From Metabacillus endolithicus (GTDB taxonomy: Bacteria > Bacillota > Bacilli > Bacillales > Bacillaceae): 64,000 bases of DNA. A model generated the notes under the pieces. It saw only the letters and a list, made by a program, of their open reading frames with translations. It did no database searches and was not told the DNA's origin. The position numbers and the translations under genes were made by a program. The stretch spans positions 4,074,001 through 4,138,000 of the forward strand of contig NZ_CP095550.1 in NCBI RefSeq assembly GCF_023078335.1, given 5' to 3'. Positions 3,843 through 58,929 of this stretch are shown in pieces; positions within the stretch are counted from its first letter, which is position 1, and the number at the start of each line of letters is the position of its first letter.

Positions 3843-4865
3843 ATGATCGTAACAATTAAAGATGTTGCAAAACGAGCGAATGTAGCTCCTTCAACTGTGT
3901 CGAGGGTTATTGCAAACAGTCCTCGTATTAGTGAGCAAACAAAAAAACGAGTTCGAGAAGTAATGGAGGAACTGGGATATCATCCAAATTTTCAGGCGCG
4001 CAGCTTAGTTGCAAAAAGTACTCAAACAATCGGTGTGGTTATGCCAAATTCAGCGTATTATGCCTTTCAAAATCCCTTTTTCCCGGAAGTATTAAGAGGG
4101 ATAAGTACAAGCGCACATGAAAATAAATATGGAATTTATTTGTCTACAGGATCTGATGAAAACGAAATCTTTAATGAAGTTGTATCGATGGTCCAAGGTA
4201 GACGTGTTGATGGCATTGTCCTTTTATATTCAAGAATTAATGATAAAACAATGAAATTTTTACATGACTCAAATTTTCCTTTTGTTGTTGTGGGGAGACC
4301 TTTTGAAAATGAGGAAAGAATTTCATTTGTTGATAACGATAATATTTATATAACAAAACAAGTAACAAAATATTTAATTGAACTTGGGCACCGTCATATT
4401 GCATTTGTTGGAGGTAGTCTTCATTTTGTCGTAACCATTGACCGTTTAAATGGATATAAGTTGGCACTAGAGGAAGCTGATATTCCGTTTAATGAAGAAT
4501 ATATGGTCCATGAAGAATATATTAAGGAAAACGGGAGAGAAGCGATCAGACTTCTTATGTCCTTAGACTCTCCACCAACGGCACTTGTGACGCAGGATGA
4601 TTTAATTGCATATGAAATGATTAGTCATTTAGAGGATATGAATGTAAGTGTTCCAAATGATATCTCTATTATAAGCTTTAACAATTTAATGCTATCTGAA
4701 CATTCAAAACCGCCTTTAACTTCAGTTGATATTTGCATTTATCAACTAGGCTTAGAAGCAACAAATTGCTTAATTGAAAAAATGAACAAACCAGATTCTT
4801 TGCCGAAAAGAATTACAATTCCTACTAAATTCATTGAACGTAAATCATGTAAAAAAAAGAAATAG
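3843..4865 (+). CDS. LacI-family transcriptional regulator of the alpha-glucoside locus (MalR-like)
   Basis: Regulator of 340 aa. The N-terminal helix-turn-helix reads IKDVAKRANVAPSTVSRVIA, followed by the hinge helix (HPNFQARSLVAKSTQTIGVVMP) and a periplasmic-binding-protein-like effector domain with the FVGGSLHFVVTIDRLNGY segment. The start at ATG 3843 is chosen because AAGGAGGCAG lies 4-13 nt upstream; the in-frame ATG at 3804 has no ribosome site. Its place between the transporter and the glucosidase makes it the probable local repressor acting on the two GTGCAAACG operators. Confidence 0.85.
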   Translation: MIVTIKDVAKRANVAPSTVSRVIANSPRISEQTKKRVREVMEELGYHPNFQARSLVAKSTQTIGVVMPNSAYYAFQNPFFPEVLRGISTSAHENKYGIYLSTGSDENEIFNEVVSMVQGRRVDGIVLLYSRINDKTMKFLHDSNFPFVVVGRPFENEERISFVDNDNIYITKQVTKYLIELGHRHIAFVGGSLHFVVTIDRLNGYKLALEEADIPFNEEYMVHEEYIKENGREAIRLLMSLDSPPTALVTQDDLIAYEMISHLEDMNVSVPNDISIISFNNLMLSEHSKPPLTSVDICIYQLGLEATNCLIEKMNKPDSLPKRITIPTKFIERKSCKKKK

Positions 4866-4875
4866 GATTATTGTA

Positions 4876-4943
4876 AAAAGGATAATTGATCGCAATGTAT
4901 TGAAATGTGTACATACATTTGATCATTTGTCCTTTTCTTTTAT
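4876..4943 (+). terminator. Terminator after the LacI regulator
   Basis: Long imperfect stem (AAAAGGATAATTGATC pairing with GATCATTTGTCCTTTT) around a 29-nt loop, followed by a T-rich run. Glucosidase expression would then need its own promoter or readthrough. Confidence 0.6.
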
Positions 4944-5067
4944 AACATGAACGGTTCTGCATTCACATAATAATAAATGTGTATGCCTCATGATAATGGA
5001 GAAACTAGGAAAATGAACTGTAAAGAAAACTATGCCCAAAATTAATGCGCATAAGAGAGGAAGTAAC

Positions 5068-6741
5068 ATGAACAAGATATGGTGGAAAGAAGCGGTTGCC
5101 TACCAGGTGTATCCTAGGAGCTTTATGGATTCAAATGGTGATGGAATTGGTGACCTTCAAGGAATGATTTCAAAATTAGATTATATTAAAGATTTAGGAA
5201 TAGATGTTATATGGATTTGTCCAATGTATAAATCGCCTAATGATGATAATGGCTATGATATTAGTGATTATCAAGACATCATGGAAGACTTCGGAACGAT
5301 GGAAGACTTTGATCAGTTGTTAAAAGAAGTTCATAACCGAGGGATGAAATTAATAATCGATTTAGTTATTAACCACACAAGTGATGAGCATCCTTGGTTT
5401 ATTGAATCACGCACATCTAAAGATAGTGAAAAACGTGATTGGTATATTTGGAGAGATGGTTTAGGCGGAAAAGAGCCGAATAACTGGGAAAGTATTTTTA
5501 GTGGTTCAGCATGGGAATATGATGAAAAAACAGAGCAATATTACATGCATATTTTTTCAACAAAACAACCTGACTTAAATTGGAGAAATCCTGAAGTTCG
5601 CCATGCCCTATACGATATGGTCAACTGGTGGCTTGATAAAGGAATAGATGGTTTCCGTGTTGATGCAATTAGTCATATTAATAAAGAAGAAGGATTAGTG
5701 GATATGCCAAATCCAGAGGGACTAAAATATGTACCTTCCTTTGATAAGCATATGAATGTTAAAGGTATCCATACCTACCTGCAAGAATTAAAAGAAGAAA
5801 CGTTTTCGAAATATGACATCATGACTGTTGGTGAAGCAAACGGAGTCAAAGTTGAAGATCACGAAGATTTAGATCAATGGGTTGGAACGGAAAATGGTAA
5901 ATTTAATATGGTGTTTCAATTCGAGCATTTATCATTATGGAATGCTACAAAAGAAAATAGTTTAGATATTTTAGGACTAAAAAATGTTCTAACAAAGTGG
6001 CAAAAAACTCTCGAAAATAACGGATGGAATGCCCTTTTTATAGAAAATCATGACCAGCCACGCCGTGTTTCAACTTGGGGGAATGATAAGGAATACTGGT
6101 ATGAGAGCGCTACGGCACTTGGTGCTATGTACTTCCTCATGCAGGGAACTCCATTTATTTATCAAGGACAAGAAATAGGGATGACAAATGTGAAGTTCAA
6201 TTCGATTGAGGAATATAATGATGTTGCCGATCGAAATATGTACAGAATTAAGCGTGAAGAAGGCGTACCACATGAAGAGATTATGGAAGTAATTTGGTCA
6301 TCCAGTCGTGATAACTCAAGAACTCCGATGCAATGGTCTGCCGAGCAAAATGCAGGATTTACAACAGGAACACCATGGCTTGGTGTAAATGAAAACTACC
6401 GTCATATTAATGTTGAAGTACAACAACAAGACGAAGGATCTATTCTACATTTTTATAAGAAAATGATCAAGATTAAAAAGGAAAATGATGTGTTTACGTA
6501 TGGAACATATGATTTGATCTTAGAAGATCATCCACAAATTTATGCGTACACACGAACATTAAAGGATGGAAAAGTTGTTATTCTCACAAACCTTACGGGA
6601 GATTCAGCTACTTGGGAAGAAGATCTAGAATTTAATGTTGATTCAAATCAGCTGTTACTTTCCAATTATGAAGTAAAGGAACATCAAGCAATATCAAAAT
6701 TTGAACTGAAACCTTATGAAACAAGAGTTTATTGGGTTTAA
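5068..6741 (+). CDS. malL: Oligo-1,6-glucosidase / alpha-glucosidase, GH13
   Basis: Cytoplasmic GH13 enzyme (557 aa) cleaving terminal alpha-glucosidic bonds of imported isomaltose- or maltose-type sugars. The N-terminus WWKEAVAYQVYPRSF starts the catalytic barrel. The nucleophile is D199 in DGFRVDAI, the acid/base is E256 in GEANG, and the third acid is D329 in ENHDQPR. The length equals that of Bacillus MalL. ATG 5068, with GAGAGGAAG upstream, is preferred over the ATG at 5032, which would add 12 residues before the conserved start. Subfamily specificity (1,6 versus 1,4 versus sucrose) cannot be fixed by eye. Confidence 0.85.
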   Translation: MNKIWWKEAVAYQVYPRSFMDSNGDGIGDLQGMISKLDYIKDLGIDVIWICPMYKSPNDDNGYDISDYQDIMEDFGTMEDFDQLLKEVHNRGMKLIIDLVINHTSDEHPWFIESRTSKDSEKRDWYIWRDGLGGKEPNNWESIFSGSAWEYDEKTEQYYMHIFSTKQPDLNWRNPEVRHALYDMVNWWLDKGIDGFRVDAISHINKEEGLVDMPNPEGLKYVPSFDKHMNVKGIHTYLQELKEETFSKYDIMTVGEANGVKVEDHEDLDQWVGTENGKFNMVFQFEHLSLWNATKENSLDILGLKNVLTKWQKTLENNGWNALFIENHDQPRRVSTWGNDKEYWYESATALGAMYFLMQGTPFIYQGQEIGMTNVKFNSIEEYNDVADRNMYRIKREEGVPHEEIMEVIWSSSRDNSRTPMQWSAEQNAGFTTGTPWLGVNENYRHINVEVQQQDEGSILHFYKKMIKIKKENDVFTYGTYDLILEDHPQIYAYTRTLKDGKVVILTNLTGDSATWEEDLEFNVDSNQLLLSNYEVKEHQAISKFELKPYETRVYWV

Positions 6742-45876: not shown

Positions 45877-46096
45877 TATGGATCGTTAATAAATAACTAT
45901 CGTTTATTGTATTAATTGTATTAACTATAAATCCTGCTCAAGTAAAAAAACATAAAGTTGTAAAGAAATCTTACAATAAATATTTGTTCAGAAAATTCCA
46001 AAAAATAATAGTTTTTAATATAAATAAAATGGATCATAATGTATATACTAGTATTTGTAAAAAACTAAATCTTTTGAACTATAATTGGAGGTATAA

Positions 46097-47044: not shown

Positions 47045-47054
47045 AGCTTTTACG

Positions 47055-47092
47055 AGAGGACAGTCTCAGTTCAGAAGAGGTCTGTCCTTTTT
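47055..47092 (+). terminator. Terminator after the azoreductase gene
   Basis: AGGACAG (47057-47063) pairs with CTGTCCT (47082-47088), extended by inner CTC/GAG, followed by TTTT. Confidence 0.75.
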
Positions 47093-47140
47093 AGTATGAT
47101 CAGGATGGATTAAAATTTTAGATGTGTATTTTAGATATTA

Positions 47141-47157
47141 TGTTAGATTATATAACA
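47141..47157 (+). promoter_or_regulatory. TnrA/GlnR box upstream of the guanidine ABC operon
   Basis: TGTTAGATTATATAACA matches every defined position of the TnrA/GlnR consensus TGTNANAWWWTMTNACA. Its centre (47149) is 50 bp upstream of the start predicted from the TATACT -10, the usual activation position for TnrA. Confidence 0.8.
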
Positions 47158-47163
47158 TGGTCG

Positions 47164-47192
47164 TTGCATACACCTTTTATCCCATTTATACT
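47164..47192 (+). promoter_or_regulatory. Promoter of the guanidine ABC operon
   Basis: TTGCAT (47164-47169), 17-bp spacer, TATACT (47187-47192). Transcription would start near 47199, about 30 nt before the riboswitch. Confidence 0.7.
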
Positions 47193-47227
47193 TTGATATA
47201 TCAAAGCAATTATTTTTCAACTCCATA

Positions 47228-47380
47228 AAGGTTCTCTATGAATTTGAGAACGAAAAAGCTGCCTAGGGTTCCGTTGGATATACCAAGCTGGTCCGAGAGG
47301 GAGCGTATAGAAATTACCTGGTTTCTATATACACGGAAGGACAAAAGCCTGGGAGACGACCTCTCCTAGGCTTTTTATTT
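47228..47380 (+). promoter_or_regulatory. Guanidine-I (ykkC class) riboswitch with terminator
   Basis: The aptamer shows the conserved blocks CTAGGGTTCCG (from 47263), CTGGTCCGAGAG and ACACGGAAGGACAAAAGCC, then GGGAGA. The last block also forms the left arm of a terminator (GCCTGGGAGA 47347-47356 / TCTCCTAGGC 47362-47371, then TTTTT). Guanidine binding would hold the aptamer and prevent termination, turning on the ABC transporter genes. A TTCTC/GAGAA hairpin precedes the aptamer. Confidence 0.93.
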
Positions 47381-47487
47381 TTCCTCTTTTTATAATTTGA
47401 AAATTCCTAATATTTAATAAATTGATATGAAGGGAGATTTGAAGTATTTATAGCTCTACCAAAATTTAGAAAATAGGAGTGAGAAGC

Positions 47488-48492
47488 ATGAAAAAACATT
47501 TTAACATACTTTTGTCAGTATTTTTTGTCTTTTTATTAGCAGCTTGCGGAAATTCAAGTGAAGAGGCAAGTGGAAATAGCTCTAAAAGTGAACCAATAAA
47601 AATTGGGTTCAGTGCATTACCTAGCTGGTACTTATGGCATCTAGTCGAAGAAAAAGGATTCTTTGAAAAACATGGAGTTGAGGTTGAATTAGTTTATTTT
47701 CCGGTTTATGCTGATTCCCTATCTGCCTTAAACACTGGAGAAATTGATGGAAACAGCCAAGCGCTTATTGACACAATTGCCCCACTTGAAAACGGTATTG
47801 AACTTAAATCAGTTTTTATAACAGATAACTCAAACGGTGGAGATGGCCTAGTAGCAACAAAGGATATTCAATCTGTTGAAGATTTAAAAGGGAAGAAAGT
47901 TGGAACAGAGATTGGTACGATTGAGCATTTCTTTATGTTAACAGCACTTGAACAGGCTGGCTTAAAGGAATCTGATGTAAATTTTACTAACCTTACTGTT
48001 CAAGATGCAGGGACAACATTTATTGCTGGAAATTTAGATGCAGCTGGATTATGGGAGCCATTCCTTAGTACTGCTGAATCAGAAGGAAATGGACATAAAT
48101 TAATTACCTCAGCAGAATTCCCAGGTCTTATTGCAGATCTCTTTGTAGTTCGCAAGGAAATCGCAGAAAACCGTCAAGAAGATCTTGAAAAAATAACTGC
48201 TGCTTGGTTTGAAGCAGTGAATTATTATTCAGAAAATGAAGAAGAATCACTTGAAATTATTGCTGAAGCTGCCGGTATAACGGTTGATGAACTTGCTATT
48301 GGAATGGAAGGGTTTGAATTATTCACACCTGAGCAAAACGTAGCTTCTTTTGAAAGATCAGATAGCTATAAATCTATTGAATATACGGCCGAGGAAAATG
48401 CAAAATTCCTTCAAAAATTAGAGTTTATAAAAGAGATTCCAGATATGACATCATTACTTGACCCAAGTTTTATTGAAAATAGTCATGAGTAA
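47488..48492 (+). CDS. ABC transporter substrate-binding lipoprotein, NMT1/SsuA type (guanidine locus)
   Basis: 334 aa. Signal with lipobox LAAC, then the family start IKIGFSALPSWYLWHLVEEK and the GTEIGTIEHFFMLTALEQAG and LDAAGLWEPFL segments of the nitrate/sulfonate/taurine-type binding proteins (cf. 'urea carboxylase region' ABC binding proteins). ATG 47488 follows TAGGAGTG. A guanidine-I riboswitch and TnrA box precede it. The substrate is therefore probably guanidine or a guanidine-releasing compound, but this is inferred from context. Confidence 0.87.
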   Translation: MKKHFNILLSVFFVFLLAACGNSSEEASGNSSKSEPIKIGFSALPSWYLWHLVEEKGFFEKHGVEVELVYFPVYADSLSALNTGEIDGNSQALIDTIAPLENGIELKSVFITDNSNGGDGLVATKDIQSVEDLKGKKVGTEIGTIEHFFMLTALEQAGLKESDVNFTNLTVQDAGTTFIAGNLDAAGLWEPFLSTAESEGNGHKLITSAEFPGLIADLFVVRKEIAENRQEDLEKITAAWFEAVNYYSENEEESLEIIAEAAGITVDELAIGMEGFELFTPEQNVASFERSDSYKSIEYTAEENAKFLQKLEFIKEIPDMTSLLDPSFIENSHE

Positions 48493-48513
48493 AACTGGAA
48501 AGGGGTGACAAAC

Positions 48514-49332
48514 ATGGAGACTGTTAAAAAGAAAGGTTACTTGAGAACATTATTTCGAATTCATGAGGAAATTCCTAAATCTTGGTATCTTGTTGGAATA
48601 GGATCGGCATTCATAGGACTTTTTCTATTTTGGTATCTCTTAAGCATAATGGGGGTTGTAAAGGAAGTGTTTCTACCTTCTCCATTTGTTGTTATAGAAT
48701 CGCTATTTACCTCGCTTGCTGATTCTGATTTTTGGAATCAAATAGGCATCAGTGTTTACCGTGTTTTTATGGGCTTTTTATTAGCTTGTATCATAGGCAT
48801 TCCATTAGGGATTTTTGCTGGGACGTTTAAAATTGCGGAATCGATTATTGTACCTATGTCTGAATTTATCCGGTATATGCCGGCAGCTGCATTTATTCCG
48901 CTTATTATGGTATGGGCTTGGGATCGGTGAAACTGCAAAAATTCTTGTTATTTTTATAGGGTGTTTCTTTCAATTGTTGCTAATGGTAGCCGAAGACACT
49001 AGCAGAGTGAATAAAGATTTGTTATCCGCATCTTACACATTAGGAGCAAAACGAGGCCAAGTCATTTCGAAAGTGATCATACCAGCGATTTTACCAAAGT
49101 TAATGGTAACAATGCGTCTTATTATGGGATGGGCTTGGACGTACTTAGTTGTAGCAGAGCTTGTAGCAGCAAACAGCGGCCTTGGATATACGATTATGAA
49201 GGCACAACGTTTTTTAGATACAGATTAATTTTTGTTGGAATTATTGTTATTGGATTATTAGGTTTAGTTATCGATCGTTGCTTTGCACTTTTAACGAAAA
49301 AATTATTTCCTTGGGCAGAAGGAGGTCAATAG
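48514..49332 (+). CDS. ABC transporter permease, SsuC/TauC type (two frameshifts)
   Basis: About 272 aa after correction. It has about six transmembrane helices, with the typical LPSPFVVIESLFTSLADSDF and SVYRVFMGFLLACIIGIPLG. Removing one G near 48915 restores MVWLGIGETAKILVIFIG, and adding one T near 49225 restores LDTDLIFVGIIVIGLLG. The EAA loop reads LLSASYTLGAKRGQVISKVI. The opposite signs of the two shifts restore the expected length. ATG 48514 follows AAAGGGG. It lies between the binding-protein and ATPase genes in one operon. Confidence 0.83.
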
Positions 49333-49333
49333 A

Positions 49334-50127
49334 ATGTTAAATGCAGTAAAACAAGTAGAGCCACTTCTAAAATCGGAATTAGAGATTAGTATAAAAGGAC
49401 TATCAAAGGTGTATCAAACAAAAGCAGGAAGCTTTCAAGCACTAGAAGATGTGTCGATGTATGTGAAAAATGAGGAGTTTGTTTCCATACTAGGTCCTTC
49501 TGGTTGTGGTAAATCTACAATTCTACGGATATTAGCAGGATTAGAAGATTCTACAAGTGGAAGTGTAAAGGTTTCAGATCAAGAAGTAGTAGGACCTAGT
49601 GTAAACAGGGGGATGGTGTTTCAATCTTACACACTATTTCCATGGTTAAATGTTCGTGACAATATTGAATTTGGTCTAAAACTAAAAGGAATGGGTTCAA
49701 AAGAACGAAAGGAAATTTCTGATCGGTATTTGGAATTAGTGGGTCTTGAGAGGTTTGCTGAATCATATGGAAAAGAACTTTCGGGAGGTATGAAGCAAAG
49801 GGTGGCAATTGCTAGATCATTAGCTAATAATCCAGAGGTTTTGTTAATGGATGAGCCGTTTGGTGCACTTGACGCCCAAACAAAGCAATCGATGCAGCAG
49901 TTATTGCTTGATATTTGGAAAAAGGAAAAACCACTATTGTTTTTATTACACATGATATTGATGAGGCTATTTTTTTATCACAACGAATTTATGTGATGCA
50001 AGCAAGACCTGGCAAAATTATTAAGGAAATTGATGCAGACCTTCACCTGTTTCAAGATGGTGACTTGGTGGAAGTTGATCAATTTATGAAACTGAAGAAG
50101 CATATTGTCTCGTTATTAAAGCATTAA
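49334..50127 (+). CDS. ABC transporter ATP-binding protein, SsuB/TauB type (one frameshift)
   Basis: About 264 aa after one A is restored near 49929 (GAAAAACC should be GAAAAAACC). Walker A is GPSGCGKST, the Q-loop [13 protein letters not shown], the signature [15 protein letters not shown], Walker [16 protein letters not shown] and the switch His is in [13 protein letters not shown]. The part after the shift ends [14 protein letters not shown] site lies at the end of the permease gene one base upstream. It completes the importer. Confidence 0.87.
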
Positions 50128-50152
50128 ATGGTCATATTTTACATGTTGTGGT

Positions 50153-50190
50153 AAAAGGCAGTGGTGCTTACAAGTTGCTACTGCCTTTTA
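50153..50190 (+). terminator. Terminator after the guanidine ABC operon
   Basis: AAAAGGCAGT (50153-50162) pairs with ACTGCCTTTT (50180-50189). Confidence 0.8.
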
Positions 50191-50250
50191 GTTTGCAAAT
50201 GATTATCCTGACCGAAACAGAAACATTAATAAAGTATAGAAACAATAGTA

Positions 50251-50296
50251 TGTCACAAAATCTAACACAACATTTGAAATGTTAGATTTTGTAACA
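50251..50296 (+). promoter_or_regulatory. Two TnrA/GlnR boxes upstream of the APC permease
   Basis: TGTCACAAAATCTAACA (50251-50267) and TGTTAGATTTTGTAACA (50280-50296) each fit TGTNANAWWWTMTNACA with at most one deviation. They are inverted copies with centres 29 bp apart. The downstream box centre lies about 48 bp before the start predicted from TTTAAT (50325-50330). The same sequence also forms a 13-bp inverted repeat. Confidence 0.72.
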
Positions 50297-50403
50297 TTAT
50301 AATAAAACACAAGTGAAGATGATATTTAATGTTTTAAAGTGAAGTGGTAAAATTACGGCTTATTTGTTCGGAATATTCTGATTAAAGGAGAGAGGGTTGA
50401 AGC

Positions 50404-51754
50404 ATGACACAAACAACAGAATTCAAAAAATCTCTAAATCTATTTGGTGTTGTTTTTCTTGGACTAGCCTGGATGACGCCAATGATCTTTTTTACAGTGT
50501 ACGGTGTTGCGTTTGAAGCAGCGGGTGGAATGCTTGCTGCTGCTTATGTTGTAGCATTTATAGCGATTTTTTTTACAGCATATAGCTATAGCAGAATGGT
50601 AAAGGCTTATCCGATTTCTGGCTCAGCCTACACCTATACGAAGAGAGCAATCAATCCAAAGATGGGGTTTCTTGTTGGCTGGGGCTCTTTTTCTTGATTA
50701 TATTGTTTCACCAATTATTGCTTGTTTAACATTTGGTCTATTCTTAAATGCTCAGTTTCCGAGTATACCAGTTTATGTATGGATTATCTTGTTAAATGTC
50801 ATTTTGGCATTTGTGAATATTATTGGGATTAAATCAGTAGCAAGAGTAAGTGGGTTTTCTGTTATCTTTCAGATCCTCTTTATTATCTTCTTTTGTGCCT
50901 TTGTAACAAAGGATATATTTGTTGGCGGAGACGGATCAGGTTTATTTTCTTTTCAACCGTTCTTTTCCAGTGACTTCTCCGTTTCCACGATTTTCTCAGG
51001 AGCAGCACTTATCTGCTTTTGTTTTTTAGGATTTGATGCGGTAACTACAATGGCAGAGGAAACAGTTAATCCTCGTAAAACAATACCTAAAGCAATTTTT
51101 CTAATCGTTATTATTGCTGCAGTGTTATACATTTCTATCTCTTATTTAACACAACTAGCCTATCCTAACTTTACGTTTGAAAATGGTGATACAGCTTCTT
51201 TTGAACTTATTCAAATGGTTGGTGGAAACCTATTAAGTGCTCTTTTTACAACCGTATTAATTGTAGCAACCTTTACTCAAGGAGTTTCATCCGTTACAAG
51301 TGTAACTAGGTTTTTATTTGCATTAGGGAGAGAGTCAATTTTGCCGAACAAAGTGTTTGGTTATTTACATCCTAAATATAAAACGCCCGTGATTAACATT
51401 ATCTTTGTGACAATCATTTCGTTTTTTTCCATAGCTATTGACTTGGATACAGCTGTAACATTTGTTAGCTTTGGTGCCCTTACGGCATTTACGTTCGTCA
51501 ATCTATCCGTTATTTCACATTATTATGTAAAGAGTAAGATGCGGTCTGCTAGACAAACATTTCTTTATCTCATTTTTCCTTTCGTTGGTGCTTGTTTTAT
51601 TGGGTGGTTATTAACTTTATTAGAAACACAAACACTCTTAATTGGTATTGCTTGGATTGTAATTGGATTTATCTACATCGGAATCCGAACAAGCATGTTT
51701 AAAAAGCCGATTTCTACTTTAAAGGAAGGAAAGGTAGCAATCGAAAATAGGTAA
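50404..51754 (+). CDS. APC-superfamily permease of the guanidine locus (one frameshift)
   Basis: About 449 aa with some twelve transmembrane helices. The N-terminus LNLFGVVFLGLAWMTPMIFF and the ISGSAYTYTKRAINPKMGFL segment identify the amino acid/polyamine/organocation superfamily, close to putrescine-type importers and the permeases found in urea-carboxylase regions. The frame breaks near 50682, where GGCTGGGGCT should be GGCTGGGCT, giving GWALFLDYIVSP. It is monocistronic, preceded by two TnrA boxes and not by a riboswitch. It probably imports guanidine, urea or an amine. Confidence 0.83.
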
Positions 51755-51766
51755 CTTTTAAAAAGT

Positions 51767-51783
51767 GTGTTAGAAAATCTGAC
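51767..51783 (+). promoter_or_regulatory. TnrA/GlnR box upstream of the guanidine carboxylase operon
   Basis: TGTTAGAAAATCTGACA fits TGTNANAWWWTMTNACA at every defined position. Its centre (51775) lies 51 bp before the start predicted from a perfect TATAAT (51814-51819). No good -35 is present, as is usual for TnrA-activated promoters. Confidence 0.82.
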
Positions 51784-51845
51784 ATAGTGTTTGGAGGAGT
51801 GTAATGGGGTGGTCTATAATAAATTTACAGAACAAATTAAATAAA

Positions 51846-52016
51846 GCTTCTCAGATGAGAAGAACAAAGCTGTCTAGGGTTCCGTTCTTGTTGCGAATAT
51901 CCCCTCATTCAATACAAGAAGTCTGGTCCGAGAGAGAGCGTATAGCTGATACCGCATGTTAGCTATATACACGGAGGGATAAAAGCCTGGGAGACGACAA
52001 TCTCCCAGGCTTTTAT
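51846..52016 (+). promoter_or_regulatory. Second guanidine-I (ykkC class) riboswitch with terminator
   Basis: Conserved blocks are TCTAGGGTTCCG (about 51873), GTCTGGTCCGAGAG and ACACGGAGGGATAAAAGCC, followed by GGGAGA. The terminator arms are GCCTGGGAGA (51985-51994) and TCTCCCAGGC (52001-52010), then TTTT. It has a longer P2-side insertion than the copy at 47228. It controls the DUF1989, carboxylase and allophanate hydrolase genes. Confidence 0.94.
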
Positions 52017-52062
52017 CTTTTTTATTTTCTCTAAACGAAATTATTTAAAGGAGGAATTCTTT

Positions 52063-52806
52063 ATGATAAATAGCATTTGGAATAAAACAATCCCAGCAGG
52101 TGGGAAATGGTCAGGAACGATCGGAAAAGGGAAGCTTGTAAAGTTTACAGCTTTAGGTAAGGGGGCAAATCTTTCAACAATCATGTATCATGCAAATCAG
52201 TTAACAGAGCGTTATAACATGCCAGATACATTAAAAGCTCAACATACTTCCCATCTAACAAAAGGTCATGTGCTAATGAGTGATAACGGGCGGGTGTTAA
52301 CGAGCATAGTGGAAGATAGTCTAGGCTGGCATGACAGTATTTCAGGGTATACGTCACGTAAGGAAACAGATGAGAAATACGGGATCACAACGTATCAAGA
52401 GCTTAGGAATAATTGGTTAAGAAGCGGCGAAGAAAATTTTGCTGTAGAGCTTGTAAGAAATGGATTAGGTGTACGTGATTTAGTTCCGGTATTAAACCTA
52501 TTTTCAAAGGTATTTTGTGATAAAAATGGCGATATGCACTATGTCGAGGACCATTGCTACGAAGGTGCAACAGTTACATTAAGAACTGAGATGGATACAT
52601 TATTCATTTTCTCGAATACACCAAATCCATTAGATCTTCGTAACGAATATTCTTCAGTACCAATTCAAATAGAAGTATTCGATGCAGAACCTGTTAAAGA
52701 TGATGATGTGTGTGTGAACTTCCGTCCGGAAAACAAAAGAGCTTTTGAAAATACATGGGAATATCACACACTACTTAGTGATTCAAAATCAGTTGTTTTG
52801 AAATAA
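52063..52806 (+). CDS. DUF1989 protein, carboxyguanidine deiminase subunit (urea carboxylase-associated)
   Basis: 247 aa. Family features are TIPAGGKWSGTIGKGKLVKF, ERYNMPDTLKAQHTSHLTKG, GRVLTSIVEDSLGWHDSISG, and NFAVELVRNGLGVRDLVPVL. Such paired DUF1989 proteins, long called urea carboxylase-associated proteins, form the deiminase that converts carboxyguanidine to allophanate in characterised guanidine pathways. It is the first gene after the second riboswitch, with a strong AAAGGAGG site. Which of the two subunits it is was not resolved. Confidence 0.88.
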   Translation: MINSIWNKTIPAGGKWSGTIGKGKLVKFTALGKGANLSTIMYHANQLTERYNMPDTLKAQHTSHLTKGHVLMSDNGRVLTSIVEDSLGWHDSISGYTSRKETDEKYGITTYQELRNNWLRSGEENFAVELVRNGLGVRDLVPVLNLFSKVFCDKNGDMHYVEDHCYEGATVTLRTEMDTLFIFSNTPNPLDLRNEYSSVPIQIEVFDAEPVKDDDVCVNFRPENKRAFENTWEYHTLLSDSKSVVLK

Positions 52807-52845: not shown

Positions 52846-53496
52846 ATGGCGGTTTTAAATTATACAGAAAGCTCACGAAAAGTAGAAGAAGCAATATATG
52901 ATAGAGTGATTCCTGCTGGAGAAGGCTGGATGCATGAACTAGAGCCTGGTCAGGTTTTAAGAATAGTAGATTTAGAGGGAAATCAAGCAGCCGATACCCT
53001 TTTCTATCATGCTGAAGACCCAGAAGATCATTACAGTGCAGTCGCGACGATGCTAGGTCAACAAAATATTTATCTATCAACAGGAACAGTTTTACGTTCT
53101 GAATCAAATAAAGGGCTTCTTAAAATTGTGGCTGATACTTGTGGACGTCATGATACATTGGGCGGAGCTTGTTCAGCACAAAGTAATACAGTGCGATATG
53201 CACATGATACATTGCCAATGCATAATTGCCGAGATACGTTTATGCTTCAGCTTTCTATGTATGATGAAAAATATACAAAGCGCGATCTAGCACCCAATAT
53301 CAATTTCTTTATGAATGTACCAGTAACACCTGATGGCGGCCTTACATTTGCAGACGGAGTATCAGCACCTGGTCGTTATGTAGAGATGCAATCAATTGTA
53401 AGGACTGTTGCGTTAATTAGTAATTGTCCTCAACTGAACAATCCATGTAATGCGTATAATCCGACGCCTGTACGTGTGTTAATTTGGGATAAATAA
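52846..53496 (+). CDS. DUF1989 protein, second carboxyguanidine deiminase subunit
   Basis: 216 aa, homologous to the preceding gene: [60 protein letters not shown] and [21 protein letters not shown] conserved Cys-containing segment ([12 protein letters not shown]) and His/Cys residues (RHDTLGG, MHNCRD) may form the metal or catalytic site. AAAGGAGGAG precedes the ATG. It probably forms a heteromer with the upstream product. Confidence 0.88.
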
Positions 53497-53551: not shown

Positions 53552-56500
53552 ATGTTTAAAAAAGTACTCATCGCCAATCGCGGCGCCATTGCAGTAAGAA
53601 TTGAACGAACATTAAAAAAACTGGGAATTAAATCGGTAGCGGTCTATACGAAAGCTGATCAAGACAGCCTGCATGTAGATAATGCTGATGAAGCAGTTCT
53701 CATTGGAGAGGGAGCGGCAAAAGACAGTTATTTAAATGCTGAACTTATTCTTAAAACAGCTATTGAAACAGGAGCAGAAGCGATTCATCCTGGATATGGC
53801 TTTTTAAGTGAAAACGCTGAATTTGCTAGAGCGTGTCAGAAAAAGGGGATTGCCTTTATTGGTCCTACCCCAGAGCAAATGGAGATGTTTGGTCTAAAGC
53901 ACTCGGCACGTGAAATTGCTGAAAAAGCTGGCGTACCAATGTTATCTGGAACGGATTTAATTGACTCTCTTGATACAGCATTAAATCATGCAAATAAAAT
54001 TGGCTACCCCGTTATTTTAAAAAGTACAGCAGGCGGTGGCGGAATTGGAATGCGTGTTTGTGACAATGAGGATGCGCTCAAAGCAGCCTATGATGGTGTT
54101 CGTCATTTAGCGGAAACGAATTTTAACAACGCTGGCTTATTTTTGGAGAAATACATTGAGAAAGCACGACATGTTGAGGTCCAAATTTTTGGTAATCGTC
54201 TCGGAGAAGTAGTGACATTAGGGGAGAGAGATTGCTCGATTCAACGTCGGAATCAAAAGGTTATTGAGGAAAGCCCAGCTCCTAAGCTTTCTGAAGATGT
54301 TCGCCAAAAGATGTTTGCTGCTGCAAAGAGTTTAGCTGAAGAAGTAGGCTATCGCAGTGCAGGAACAGTTGAATTTTTATATGACCCTGAAAGCTGTGGA
54401 TTTTACTTCCTAGAGGTAAATACTCGCTTACAGGTCGAGCACGGAGTAACAGAAGAAGTATTAGGTGTAGATTTAGTGGAGTGGATGGTAAAGGAAGCAG
54501 CAGATAAGTTGAAGAATTTACAGACCCTTGTTTCTGAACCAAAAGGACATAGTATCCAAGCACGAATTTATGCAGAAGATTGCTTTCATGATTTCCGACC
54601 AAGTGCAGGGCAGTTAGATCAAGTGATTTTATCAGATCTTGCTCGGAATGAAACATGGATTCGTGATGGAATAACTGTTACATCTCTTTATGATCCAATG
54701 CTTGCAAAAATTATCGTTCACGGTAAAGACAGACAAGAGGCAATAGGCAAATTGATTCAAGCTTTAAGTGAAACCCGAATGTATGGAATTACAACGAATC
54801 TACAGTATTTACAAGCATTATTACATGAAGAGGAATGTGTCGCAGGAAATGTGTACACTAGAATGCTAAACAGCTTTGAAGCAGTTGAAAATGCACTTGA
54901 AGTACTAGATGGAGGGATACAAACAACAATCCAAGATTGGCCTGGACGAAAAGGTCATTGGGATGTTGGTGTACCACCTTGTGGACCGATGGATCCTTTG
55001 TCCTTTCGAATGGGAAATAAGCTTTTAGGAAATAACGACGATGCACCTGGATTGGAATTTACATTACGAGGAGGGTCTTATCAATTCCGAAATGAGATGT
55101 GGTTCTGTTTAACCGGTGCTGATATGGAAGCGAAGCTAGAGGGTGAAAAAGTTTCTTTATATAAACCAATTTTTGCCCAAAAAGGTCAGATCTTATCTTT
55201 CGGAGAAGCAAAGGTTGGAATGAGAGCTTATATGTTAGTAGCAGGCGGATTCGATATGCCGAAAATATTAGGCAGCTCTTCTACATTTACACTCGGAAAC
55301 TTTGGTGGACATGGTGGTAGAGCACTTAGAACAGGGGATGTTCTATCTGTTCATAATGATGTTATCCCTCCTGCTACAAATGCACTTCCAATAGAATATC
55401 AACCAACAGTTAACAACACATGGACAATTGGTGTTATTCCAGGACCGCATTGCACTGAGGAGTTTTTGCAACCGAATTATTTAACACAACTTACCGAAAC
55501 AAAATGGGAAATTCATTTTAACAGTTCGCGCACTGGGGTCCGCTTAATTGGTCCAAAACCATTATGGACACGTGAAGACGGTGGAGAAGCAGGTCTGCAT
55601 CCATCAAACATTCATGACAATGCATACGCAATCGGGACACTTGACTTAACTGGTGATATGCCAATTTTACTTGGTCCGGATGGTCCGAGTCTTGGTGGAT
55701 TTGTTTGCCCTGTTACTACTGCTTCAGCAGAGTTTTGGAAAATTGGTCAGCTGCATCCTGGTGATTCTGTTCAATTTAAATTAATGACTCTAGAAGAGGC
55801 AGCTCGTTTGCGAAAGCTACAGGATGGAAATCTTCATGCAATCGGAGAAGGTAATTTTGCTCAGTTAAGTGAAATTCAGTTTGCTGAGCCTGAAGTTGAG
55901 ATGACATCTGCTTACCCTATTTTAGCATCCGAAAAGGATAGAGAAATTTCAATTACAATTCGCTGCAGTGGAGATGAAAATCTCCTTGTAGAATACGGAG
56001 ATATGGAGCTTGATTTACAATTACGATTCCAAGCACATGTCTTAATGGATGCGATTCAGAAGAGCGAGGATTTTCCTGTGTTGGATCTAACACCAGGAAT
56101 TCGTTCATTACAAATTCATATTGATGCTTCAAAAATAGCGGTGAAAGAAGCTGTTGAAAAAGTATTAGAAATTGATCGTAACTTACCACCACTAGAATCG
56201 ATTCAGGTACCATCAAGAATTGTCCGACTACCATTATCTTGGAATGATCCATCAGTAAAATTAGCTACAGAACGCTATCAGCAAAATGTTCGACAGGATG
56301 CACCTTGGTGTCCGGATAACCTTGAATTCATTCGACGAATAAATGGTTTAAAATGTATTGAAGATGTGAAAAATGTAGTTTTTGATGCTAATTATCTTGT
56401 TCTTGGATTAGGAGATGTTTATTTAGGAGCCCCTGTGGCAACGCCGATTGATCCACGACACCGATTAGTTACAACGAAGTACAACCCAGCTAGAACGTGG

Positions 56501-57184
56501 ACACCAGAAAACGCTGTTGGGATTGGCGGAGCATATATGTGCGTATATGGTATGGAAGGACCAGGTGGCTATCAATTTGTTGGTCGTACGATTCAAATGT
56601 GGAATAAGCTTCGATCAACAAAGAGCTTTGAACCAGGTAAACCATGGTTATTACGATTTTTTGATCAAATTCAATTTTATCCAGTTGAAGCAGATGAATT
56701 GCTACAACTCCGTGAAGATGTACTTCGTGGTCGTTTTGAAGTTGATATTACCGAAACAACATTCGATCTCGGGGAATACTTGAAGTTCCAAGATGACATA
56801 AAAGAAAGTACGGAGTTGTTTAAACAACGTCAACAAGCAGCCTTCCATGCAGAACGTAAAAGATGGAAGGAGCAAGGAATTGCAGAGCATGTTTTAGAAG
56901 AAAATTCAATGGGTTCAATTGAAGAGGATGAAATTCCAGAAGGCTCAATCCCTGTTAATTGTTCTATGCCAGGGAGTGTATGGAAAGTGCTTGTTTCTCC
57001 AGGTCAGCAGGTAAAAAAAGGTGATGTACTTATTATAGAAGAAAGTATGAAAATGGAATTTCCTCAAGCGGCTCCTTGTGATGGAGAAATTGCTGAAGTA
57101 TATGTAAAACCAGGAGATTCAGTTCATGCAGGTCAATTGATTGTCAGTATCTTTGAAGAAAAAAAGGTAGGTGTTGCTCAATGA
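53552..57184 (+). CDS. Biotin-dependent urea/guanidine carboxylase
   Basis: 1210 aa in one chain. Biotin carboxylase at about 1-445 (VLIANRGAIAVRI, the ATP loop STAGGGGIGMRV, FLEVNTRLQVEH). Carboxyltransferase follows in two parts: the KipA/AHS2-like part at about 455-770 (GGIQTTIQDWPGRKGHWDVG) and the KipI/AHS1-like part at about 800-1060 (PLSWNDPSVKLATERYQQNV). A biotin carrier domain lies at the C-terminus, with biotinyl K1167 in EESMKMEF. Sequence alone does not separate urea from guanidine as substrate. The riboswitch and the paired DUF1989 genes favour guanidine carboxylation to carboxyguanidine. Its stop overlaps the hydrolase start (ATGA). Confidence 0.92.
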   Translation: MFKKVLIANRGAIAVRIERTLKKLGIKSVAVYTKADQDSLHVDNADEAVLIGEGAAKDSYLNAELILKTAIETGAEAIHPGYGFLSENAEFARACQKKGIAFIGPTPEQMEMFGLKHSAREIAEKAGVPMLSGTDLIDSLDTALNHANKIGYPVILKSTAGGGGIGMRVCDNEDALKAAYDGVRHLAETNFNNAGLFLEKYIEKARHVEVQIFGNRLGEVVTLGERDCSIQRRNQKVIEESPAPKLSEDVRQKMFAAAKSLAEEVGYRSAGTVEFLYDPESCGFYFLEVNTRLQVEHGVTEEVLGVDLVEWMVKEAADKLKNLQTLVSEPKGHSIQARIYAEDCFHDFRPSAGQLDQVILSDLARNETWIRDGITVTSLYDPMLAKIIVHGKDRQEAIGKLIQALSETRMYGITTNLQYLQALLHEEECVAGNVYTRMLNSFEAVENALEVLDGGIQTTIQDWPGRKGHWDVGVPPCGPMDPLSFRMGNKLLGNNDDAPGLEFTLRGGSYQFRNEMWFCLTGADMEAKLEGEKVSLYKPIFAQKGQILSFGEAKVGMRAYMLVAGGFDMPKILGSSSTFTLGNFGGHGGRALRTGDVLSVHNDVIPPATNALPIEYQPTVNNTWTIGVIPGPHCTEEFLQPNYLTQLTETKWEIHFNSSRTGVRLIGPKPLWTREDGGEAGLHPSNIHDNAYAIGTLDLTGDMPILLGPDGPSLGGFVCPVTTASAEFWKIGQLHPGDSVQFKLMTLEEAARLRKLQDGNLHAIGEGNFAQLSEIQFAEPEVEMTSAYPILASEKDREISITIRCSGDENLLVEYGDMELDLQLRFQAHVLMDAIQKSEDFPVLDLTPGIRSLQIHIDASKIAVKEAVEKVLEIDRNLPPLESIQVPSRIVRLPLSWNDPSVKLATERYQQNVRQDAPWCPDNLEFIRRINGLKCIEDVKNVVFDANYLVLGLGDVYLGAPVATPIDPRHRLVTTKYNPARTWTPENAVGIGGAYMCVYGMEGPGGYQFVGRTIQMWNKLRSTKSFEPGKPWLLRFFDQIQFYPVEADELLQLREDVLRGRFEVDITETTFDLGEYLKFQDDIKESTELFKQRQQAAFHAERKRWKEQGIAEHVLEENSMGSIEEDEIPEGSIPVNCSMPGSVWKVLVSPGQQVKKGDVLIIEESMKMEFPQAAPCDGEIAEVYVKPGDSVHAGQLIVSIFEEKKVGVAQ

Positions 57185-58929
57185 GAAAGCTGGAAATTCC
57201 TTTGAAATTAACACTTAACTGGTTACGTGAAAAATATGCAACAAAAGAATTGAAGCCAGAAGAAGTTATAGAGGCAATTATTCAACGTTCCCAAGATGAT
57301 GAGGAAATGAATATTTGGATTACAGCACCTCAAATGGAACATATTCAACCTTATCTTAACCGTCTTTCAGCGCTTGATTTTGAGTCATCACCGTTATGGG
57401 GGATCCCGTTTGCTATAAAAGATAATATTGACCTAGCAAATGTTCCAACAACAGCTGGGTGTGCAGAATATAGTTATACACCTACTAAACATGCTTCAGT
57501 CGTTGAGAGATTAATAGCTGCAGGTGCCATTCCGGTTGGGAAAACAAATTTAGATCAATTCGCAACAGGTCTAGTAGGAACGCGAAGCCCTTATGGAGAA
57601 ACCCATAATTCGCTTCGTCCAGAGCTGATAAGCGGTGGTTCCAGCTCTGGATCTGCTGTATCAGTTGCAAGAGGGCAGGCTGTTTTCTCACTGGGGACAG
57701 ATACAGCAGGTTCTGGTCGTGTACCTGCTGCGCTTAATAATTTAGTAGGTTTAAAGCCGAGCTTAGGAGCATGGCCAACAAAGGGTGTTGTACCTGCATG
57801 TGCCAGCCTTGATTGTGTAACAGTTTTTTCACATAATTTAGAAGAAGCGTATAAAGTAGATGCGATTGCTAGAGGTTTCGATCAAGAAGATCCTTGGTCA
57901 CGTGATCTTGCCATTCCACAAGCTAAGCTTCCTAAGAAAATTTGTTTACCAAAAGATGATTTAATGTTTTATGGTCCTTTTGCTGAGGAGTATAAAATAG
58001 CTTGGGATGGAGCTGTTAACCAAATCAAACAATTAAATATCCAAATTGATTACATTGACTATCAATTCTTTGCAGAAGCAGCAGCGATTCTTTATAATGG
58101 ACCGTTTGTAGCGGAACGATGGGGATTGATCTAGGCGGCTTTATTAATAATCATCCAGGAGTAACTTTCCCGGTAACGGAAAAAGTCCTTCGTTCAGGTT
58201 CACAACCAAAACATGATGCTGCATCTGTTTTTCATTCAATGCACAAGCTACAGGAATATAAATTAAAAGCTAGCAAGCTACTACATGATGCTGTTCTTGT
58301 TACGCCAACTGCAGGTGGAACATGGAATCGTGATCAAGTCCGTGAAGACCCGATTAAAACAAATAGTGAAATGGGGGCTTTACACAAATCATTGTAACTT
58401 ATTAGATTTGTGTGCGGTTGCCGTCCAAGCCGGCGAAGCAGCACCAAACCTGCCTTTTGGAATTACATTCTTTGCTTTGTCTCATAATGAAGGATTGATT
58501 ACTGGAGCTGCCGAGGCATTTGTTAATAAAATGCCAGCAAAACAAGAAACCACTTTAGTTGCTGTATGTGGTTTGCATATGAGAGGCTTTCCTTTAGAAA
58601 AGCAAATGCTTGAATTTGGTGCATCCTTTATTCGCGAGGATGTGACTGCTGAAAAATATCAATTTGTGAAACTACCAACTGAGCCAGCGAAACCAGGATT
58701 GATTAAGAAGCAAACAGGTGGAAAAGCAATTGAGCTAGAAATTTGGGAAATGCCACTTTCCTCATTTGGGGCTTTTGCGGCATTAATTCCTGCGCCACTT
58801 GGAATAGGGAAGGTTGAGTTACAAGATGGTGTAGAAGTACCAGGATTTATTTGTGAAGGATACGCTGCTGAAGACGCAGAAGATATTTCAGATGCAGGAA
58901 GCTGGAGAAAAATTTTGTTAGAAATTTAA
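57181..58929 (+). CDS. Allophanate hydrolase, AtzF type (two frameshifts)
   Basis: About 582 aa after correction. It hydrolyses allophanate to CO2 and two ammonia. The amidase domain shows the Ser-cisSer-Lys triad: Lys in WGIPFAIKDNIDL, the Ser residues in ISGGSSSGSAVSVA, and TAGSGRVPAALNNLVGLKPS. The C-terminal allophanate hydrolase domain (about 465-582) contains QLLEFGASF-like MLEFGASFIREDVTAEKYQF and ends with an 'APLGIGKVELQDG' segment. One G is missing near 58122 (WGIDLGGFINNHPG) and one extra G lies near 58375 (NSEMGLYTNHCNLLDL); the shifts cancel. Translation is coupled to the carboxylase. Confidence 0.87.

Follow-up and report, generated by a model that had tools for sequence, protein, structure and literature searches.

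TnrA/GlnR boxes and guanidine-I riboswitches at a Metabacillus guanidine-use locus point to a probable two-layer nitrogen and guanidine control

The closest described system for nitrogen control is the TnrA regulon of Bacillus subtilis, in which a 17-bp inverted repeat, TGTNANAWWWTNTNACA, accompanies nitrogen-scavenging targets (PMC4475385, PMC3412718); the available passages of these papers name no guanidine-use genes among them. For guanidine control, the guanidine-I operons of Pseudomonas, enterobacteria, cyanobacteria and comammox bacteria carry the same aptamer as here before genes for ABC or APC importers, carboxylase, deiminase and allophanate hydrolase, and no added nitrogen regulator is described for them in the available text (PMC12186494, PMC11410670). 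In our study, a stretch of 64,000 nucleotides from Metabacillus endolithicus (contig NZ_CP095550.1, positions 4,074,001 to 4,138,000; hereafter the window, whose own positions are used) has been analysed, which contains a guanidine-use locus with a TnrA/GlnR box at every transcription unit and, at two of the three units, a guanidine-I riboswitch following the box.

The nearest precedent for this pairing is ykkC of B. subtilis, where a predicted TnrA box also stands at a guanidine-I riboswitch gene, which in that case is an exporter. A TnrA signal in chromatin immunoprecipitation on microarrays (ChIP-on-chip) and a predicted box were reported there in 2015, and under the conditions tested a reporter gave no sign of a tnrA effect; in the available passages the authors placed ykkC in a secondary regulon, at whose sites TnrA perhaps does not interact directly (PMC4475385). 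The word guanidine does not occur in the text of that paper, and ykkC is unmentioned in the main text of the GlnR ChIP-on-chip study of B. subtilis (PMC5569456). Since the ykkC leader should terminate without guanidine, the published reporter may have been blind to an effect of TnrA on the promoter. The combination of nitrogen box and guanidine riboswitch had been regarded as undescribed in the first-pass annotation of this DNA. For guanidine-use genes this view holds within the available text of the openly licensed PMC literature, in which no description of it was found, but TnrA occupancy at ykkC has been known since 2015. The ilv-leu operon of B. subtilis likewise has TnrA at the promoter and an RNA terminator switch (a T-box) in the leader; according to the available passages TnrA acts there as a repressor and the RNA is a tRNA sensor, unlike what is proposed for the guanidine locus (PMC12452182, PMC6191146).

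The guanidine-use locus lies on the + strand at 47.1-58.9 kb of the window, in a genome of 5.3 Mb on two contigs, and consists of three units: an ABC importer (unit 1), an APC-type permease, and an operon of UAAP1, UAAP2, carboxylase and allophanate hydrolase (unit 3). We favour, at a probability of about 0.8, a two-layer control in which TnrA would start transcription under nitrogen limitation and guanidine would let it pass the terminator at units 1 and 3. The regulatory features are as follows, with L217 and L218 denoting the corresponding loci of two relatives.

47141..47157, no strand assigned: TnrA/GlnR box of the ABC importer unit; strict match on both strands, centre about -50, identical in L217 and L218
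47164..47192, + strand: predicted promoter of the ABC unit, TTGCAT-17-TATACT (TATACT at 47187-47192), start about 47199
47252..47357, + strand: guanidine-I riboswitch 1, RF00442 at 84.2 bits (Rfam gathering score 63)
47343..47375, + strand: intrinsic terminator of unit 1, using the last 15 aptamer bases; z -5.75 folded with flanks
50152..50190, + strand: terminator-like hairpin after the ABC unit; folding z -4.03, unlisted by the terminator scan
50251..50267, no strand assigned: box A of the permease unit, centred at about -51; L217 has it intact, L218 with one change
50274..50303, + strand: predicted promoter of the permease unit, TTGAAA-18-TATAAT, start about 50310
50280..50296, no strand assigned: box B of the permease unit, within the promoter spacer and centred at about -22; L218 has it intact, L217 with one change
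51768..51784, no strand assigned: TnrA/GlnR box of the carboxylase unit; strict match on both strands, centre about -51, identical in L217 and L218
51791..51820, + strand: predicted promoter of the carboxylase unit, TTGGAG-18-TATAAT (TATAAT at 51815-51820), start about 51827
51863..51995, + strand: guanidine-I riboswitch 2, RF00442 at 86.2 bits (Rfam gathering score 63)
51974..52021, + strand: intrinsic terminator of unit 3, using the last 22 aptamer bases; z -8.30 folded with flanks

The strict pattern TGTNANAWWWTMTNACA has these four sites and no others in the window, so that boxes stand at all three units, as had been claimed; of the positions given earlier, 47141, 50251 and 50280 were right and 51767 was one base off. 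The six strand matches compare with 0.04 expected, and none of 100 shuffles reached six. With the looser core TGTNAN7TNACA the enrichment is mild (5 against 1.74 expected, a value reached by 4 of 100 shuffles). Across the genome 16 distinct sites fit the strict pattern, four of them in the guanidine locus, against a single match of the reversed control pattern. Other sites precede two amtB-type genes, an amino-acid ABC importer and an amidohydrolase (neighbouring proteins read by eye). The two tnrA genes have a site each as well: at one of them the distance to the TnrA domain is about 110 bp, at the second about 520 bp, and the latter is too far away to be called autoregulation.

Regulators of this kind are encoded in the genome. 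Two TnrA-type proteins pass NCBIfam NF053740 with 171.6 and 168.6 bits (cut-off 140), and a third protein, at 86.8 bits and below that cut-off, is encoded directly before a glutamine-synthetase-like frame and was taken as GlnR-like. The tnrA-type genes are found at C1:4272311 and C1:546349, and the genomes of M. halosaccharovorans and M. niabensis also hold two over the cut-off.

From box centre to predicted start there are 50 bp in unit 1, 51 bp in unit 3 and 51 bp for box A of the permease unit. The spacings first proposed for TATACT and TATAAT (50 and 51 bp) were thus confirmed. The TTTAAT at 50325-50330, first taken as the permease promoter, was rejected, as it is absent at the corresponding place in both relatives while TTGAAA-18-TATAAT is kept in both, with hexamers and spacing unchanged in L218 and as TTGAAC-18-TATAAT in L217. 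This promoter has 11 of 12 consensus matches and is the top of 19 promoter-like sites in 47050-52100; it leaves box A at -51 and places box B between -35 and -10. The same geometry is predicted beyond the window. At 44 Bacillaceae sites with the box at -160 to -85, a set chosen by ourselves, the box centre and the start predicted from the best -35/-10 pair are 50 or 51 bp apart in 41, against a mean of 2.2 and a maximum of 8 under random placement (2000 trials), and the -10 is TATACT in 35 of the 44. Column counts over 46 Bacillaceae sites show the box, the TTG of the -35 (87-89%) and the -10 as conserved blocks. Elsewhere in the same genome, distances of 49-50 bp are predicted on the gene strand at the boxes of the amidohydrolase, the amino-acid importer, an FAD enzyme and tnrA.

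In units 1 and 3 the aptamers start 53 and 36 nt, respectively, past the predicted transcription starts. Both terminators are far more stable on folding than shuffled sequence. Because each terminator shares the 3' bases of its aptamer, terminator and full aptamer are mutually exclusive, and this riboswitch class is known to be turned on by guanidine from a ykkC-lacZ reporter, in the available account (PMC12186494). The mechanism that we favour is as follows. When nitrogen is short, TnrA would be freed from feedback-inhibited glutamine synthetase and, on a box centred 50-51 bp before the start, would help the polymerase at promoters whose -35 is weak. In units 1 and 3, guanidine would then decide the fate of the transcript: in its absence the 3' end of the aptamer would pair into the terminator, in its presence this end would remain in the aptamer and transcription would continue. 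Full reading of these two units would thus require nitrogen shortage and guanidine together. Such AND logic may be replaced by an additive, graded one, in which basal transcription plus guanidine suffices in nitrogen excess and TnrA only raises the level. We regard this alternative as possible though rather doubtful: the basal level is not fixed by the sequence and the -10 elements, TATACT and TATAAT, are good, but the -35 hexamers TTGCAT and TTGGAG are too weak to be listed by the promoter scan.

The permease unit does not share in the proposed dual control. Units 1 and 3 have both box and riboswitch, but the permease unit has boxes only, no riboswitch having been found before the permease in the Rfam search. 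Only the nitrogen layer would act here, with box A activating and box B damping. This reading is drawn from the nif promoter of Paenibacillus polymyxa, which also has two GlnR sites, the upstream one activating and the downstream one repressing, an arrangement paralleled by the permease unit and by many Paenibacillaceae loci; in the available description the nif site II lies 24 bp past the start and no riboswitch is present (PMC6191146), while box B here lies between -35 and -10. The permease could import the first guanidine and so open both riboswitches. In two named Metabacillus loci the first riboswitch stands directly before the permease, which suggests that, in the group of the window, the ABC genes entered between the two. 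The hairpin at 50152-50190 may end the ABC unit.

Conservation of the boxes in orthologous loci was examined in 80 named loci, the best of 581 candidates drawn through the carboxylase protein; among these 80 the nearest carboxylase loci are those of M. halosaccharovorans and M. niabensis. A covariance model built from 20 same-genus aptamers gave 111 matches, of which 109 strong ones were kept and 2 weak ones dropped. Boxes were scored within 300 bp upstream of the riboswitch, and genes were classed by tblastn to a few references, the YitT-like class being our own reading. Upstream of 80 of the 109 riboswitches there is a site with no more than one mismatch to the strict pattern, against none for the reversed pattern. 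By class, the core is present at 58 of 63 UAAP1, 30 of 31 permease, 5 of 8 binding-protein, 0 of 2 SMR, 0 of 1 ATPase, 0 of 3 ABC permease and 1 of 1 unclassified riboswitches. In a same-family set it was found at 8 of 8 permease, 3 of 3 binding-protein and 8 of 10 UAAP1 riboswitches (the other two having one mismatch to the strict pattern), at 0 of 45 SMR and 0 of 2 unclassified ones, and at 2 of 23 YitT-like ones, both near -293.

When repeats (L196, L221 and L222, of L036, L034 and L035) and unclassified rows are dropped, the core in Bacilli stands at 108 of 116 guanidine-use riboswitches against 2 of 70 SMR or YitT-like ones, so the conservation on which the first-pass annotation had staked its proposal was found. 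The same family alone gives 15 of 17 against 2 of 68, and outside Bacilli the core is present at none of 7 riboswitches. Fisher P values from these counts are 6e-39 and 1e-12, in which the kinship of the sequences overstates independence. Named loci with the core bear 19 genus names by our count. As background, the core occurs in 24 of 4768 segments of 300 bp from the same loci and in 28 of 2697 AT-rich ones. The same-family SMR sites include 11 of 45 with a one-mismatch near-box, 54-56 nt before the aptamer, beside TTGAAA and centred at about -45, which lacks the core and was counted as absent in these figures.

The boxes could also be unrelated to nitrogen control, as palindromes arisen by chance or as segments of RNA hairpins, and the stretch with boxes A and B does fold well as a single strand (z -4.62). 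The boxes at 47141 and 51768, however, lie upstream of the predicted starts, and over the 46 Bacillaceae sites the fixed box positions are 93-100% kept while the adjoining N positions vary. Chance is further contradicted by the shuffles, the reversed pattern, the exporter riboswitches and the background segments; this origin was rejected on these grounds and is hardly credible.

The exporter contrast within the family is confounded by genus, being mostly between Bacillus exporters and Metabacillus uptake genes; for this reason an order survey, a genus collapse and within-genome pairs were made. The survey covered 249 genomes, of which 139 have a guanidine-I match and 124 have one over the Rfam cut-off, and comprises 138 riboswitches over that cut-off; G000, G022, G034, G036, G049 and G064, already covered, were left out, and as the survey overlaps with the named set in several genomes the two are not independent. 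Upstream of SMR exporters the core is present at 0 of 104 riboswitches (101 genomes, 50 genera), and none of these has a site with one mismatch or fewer. At uptake or breakdown units it was found at 19 of 25 riboswitches (16 genomes, 10 of 13 genera), and among unclassified rows at 4 of 9. In the five genomes holding both kinds the count is 7 of 7 uptake or breakdown riboswitches against 0 of 5 SMR ones. Fisher P is 7e-18, or 2e-9 after genus collapse, with independence again overstated by relatedness. The six survey sites without the core are two from a single genus, which have one mismatch, and two pairs identical to the B. taeanensis and Anaerobacillus sites of the named set.

On these counts we lean towards the view that across Bacilli a nitrogen-regulator box marks the riboswitches of guanidine as food, with a conserved AND gate at uptake and breakdown genes and with nitrogen control kept away from exporters; the TnrA signal at B. 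subtilis ykkC is maybe an offshoot of this arrangement. What is new is the rule that the box goes with uptake and breakdown and not with export, the parts themselves being known. The question whether bacteria meet guanidine mostly as a nutrient or as a poison is still open; were the rule true, regulation would answer it gene by gene, Bacilli having put uptake and breakdown under nitrogen control too and SMR exporters not. The locus would also offer a natural two-input gate of transcription factor and riboswitch, approachable with ordinary reporters in B. subtilis 168.

A number of observations weigh against the two-layer control by TnrA. The 19 promoter-like sites in the searched interval compare with 17.9 expected by chance, and the position of -49 to -51 is one that we take to be that of TnrA activation. 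The three boxes before amtB-type genes, expected to be classic targets, have predicted distances of 38, 72 and 71 bp and never 49-51. The core is absent at 8 of the 116 Bacilli guanidine-use sites. Anaerobacillus has no recognisable box at either unit, Marinococcus and unit 2 of B. taeanensis have two-mismatch sites only, and in Salibacterium the core is found only at -208. All four encode TnrA over the cut-off (the L082 genome being left out), and the idea that box-less lineages lack TnrA was rejected. In Paenibacillaceae the 50-51 bp spacing is found at only 15 of 60 riboswitches by our count, other boxes lying near the aptamer or containing the -35.

In none of the five Paenibacillaceae genomes searched does a protein exceed the TnrA cut-off of 140 bits (the best has 133.2), and both roles are filled by GlnR in P. 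polymyxa, according to the available passages (PMC9948412); the partner of the box in this family should therefore be GlnR, with the sign of control either way. For the present locus, repression by GlnR, by which the boxes would shut the locus in nitrogen excess and the promoters would otherwise be on, is in our estimate unlikely. It would agree with the Paenibacillaceae boxes near the aptamer, with the presence of a GlnR-like protein, with the place of box B inside the permease promoter and with a consensus, TGTNAN7TNACA, common to GlnR and TnrA (PMC6191146, available text). The outer A and T linked to GlnR motifs in the available part of PMC3412718 are both present in two of the four boxes (47141 and 50280), but the 51768 box has no outer A. 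Moreover, the boxes at -50/-51 leave the promoter free, and the weak -35 hexamers with fixed spacing fit activation, as the two-layer control by TnrA would have it.

The genes of the locus are listed below.

47479..48492, + strand: ABC substrate-binding protein, likely of a guanidine importer; TIGR01728 at 200.2 bits (cut-off 163.5)
48505..49333, + strand: ABC permease, broken frames in the window; a single open frame in L217 and L218
49334..50127, + strand: ABC ATPase, broken frames in the window; a single open frame in L217
50404..51754, + strand: APC-type permease, possible guanidine importer, broken frames in the window; a single open frame of 449 aa in L217 and L218
52063..52806, + strand: UAAP1, likely carboxyguanidine deiminase subunit; TIGR03425 at 288.2 bits (cut-off 205.95)
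52846..53496, + strand: UAAP2, likely carboxyguanidine deiminase subunit; TIGR03424 at 308.5 bits (cut-off 284.7)
53552..57184, + strand: read as guanidine carboxylase (family name urea carboxylase); TIGR02712 at 1761.2 bits (cut-off 1303.85), with both signature aspartates
57181..58929, + strand: allophanate hydrolase, broken frames in the window; below cut-off here, the L218 counterpart passing NF006043 and TIGR02713

Guanidine and urea carboxylases are told apart by Asp at Kluyveromyces lactis positions 1330 and 1584, as given in the available text of PMC11410670. In the alignment, counted by hand, D698 of the window's carboxylase aligns with N1330 and the GLGD Asp with D1584; with the TIGR02712 match, these two residues led us to read the product of 53552..57184 as a guanidine carboxylase. 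The broken frames of the ABC permease, ATPase, APC permease and hydrolase are sequencing errors or recent decay.

Some further observations were made in passing. One more box with the core, at 45959-45975 and with one mismatch to the strict pattern, lies between ppc and a small open reading frame before an azoreductase gene. In a relative (G006; L195, about 1001) a third guanidine-I riboswitch, with a core box at -60, precedes another binding-protein gene, and in 23 loci (e.g. L201, L172 and L166) from many Bacillus genomes a second one, mostly box-less, precedes a YitT-like membrane gene. At L289, about 2016, a guanidine-I riboswitch with box has no sense gene behind it and is probably an orphan remnant, its box being shared with permease riboswitches in its own genus (L275 and L291). 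At about 1600 in L357 and L358 an amidohydrolase-like frame follows a guanidine-I match that is weak (63-64 bits), and a core box stands 28 nt ahead of the aptamer. In L217 a gene at 4035-5723 for a methyl-accepting chemotaxis protein of 562 aa, a possible guanidine chemoreceptor, separates the permease from the guanidine ABC genes, and a shorter chemoreceptor-like frame, a remnant, is seen behind riboswitch 1 in L224 (3491-3775).

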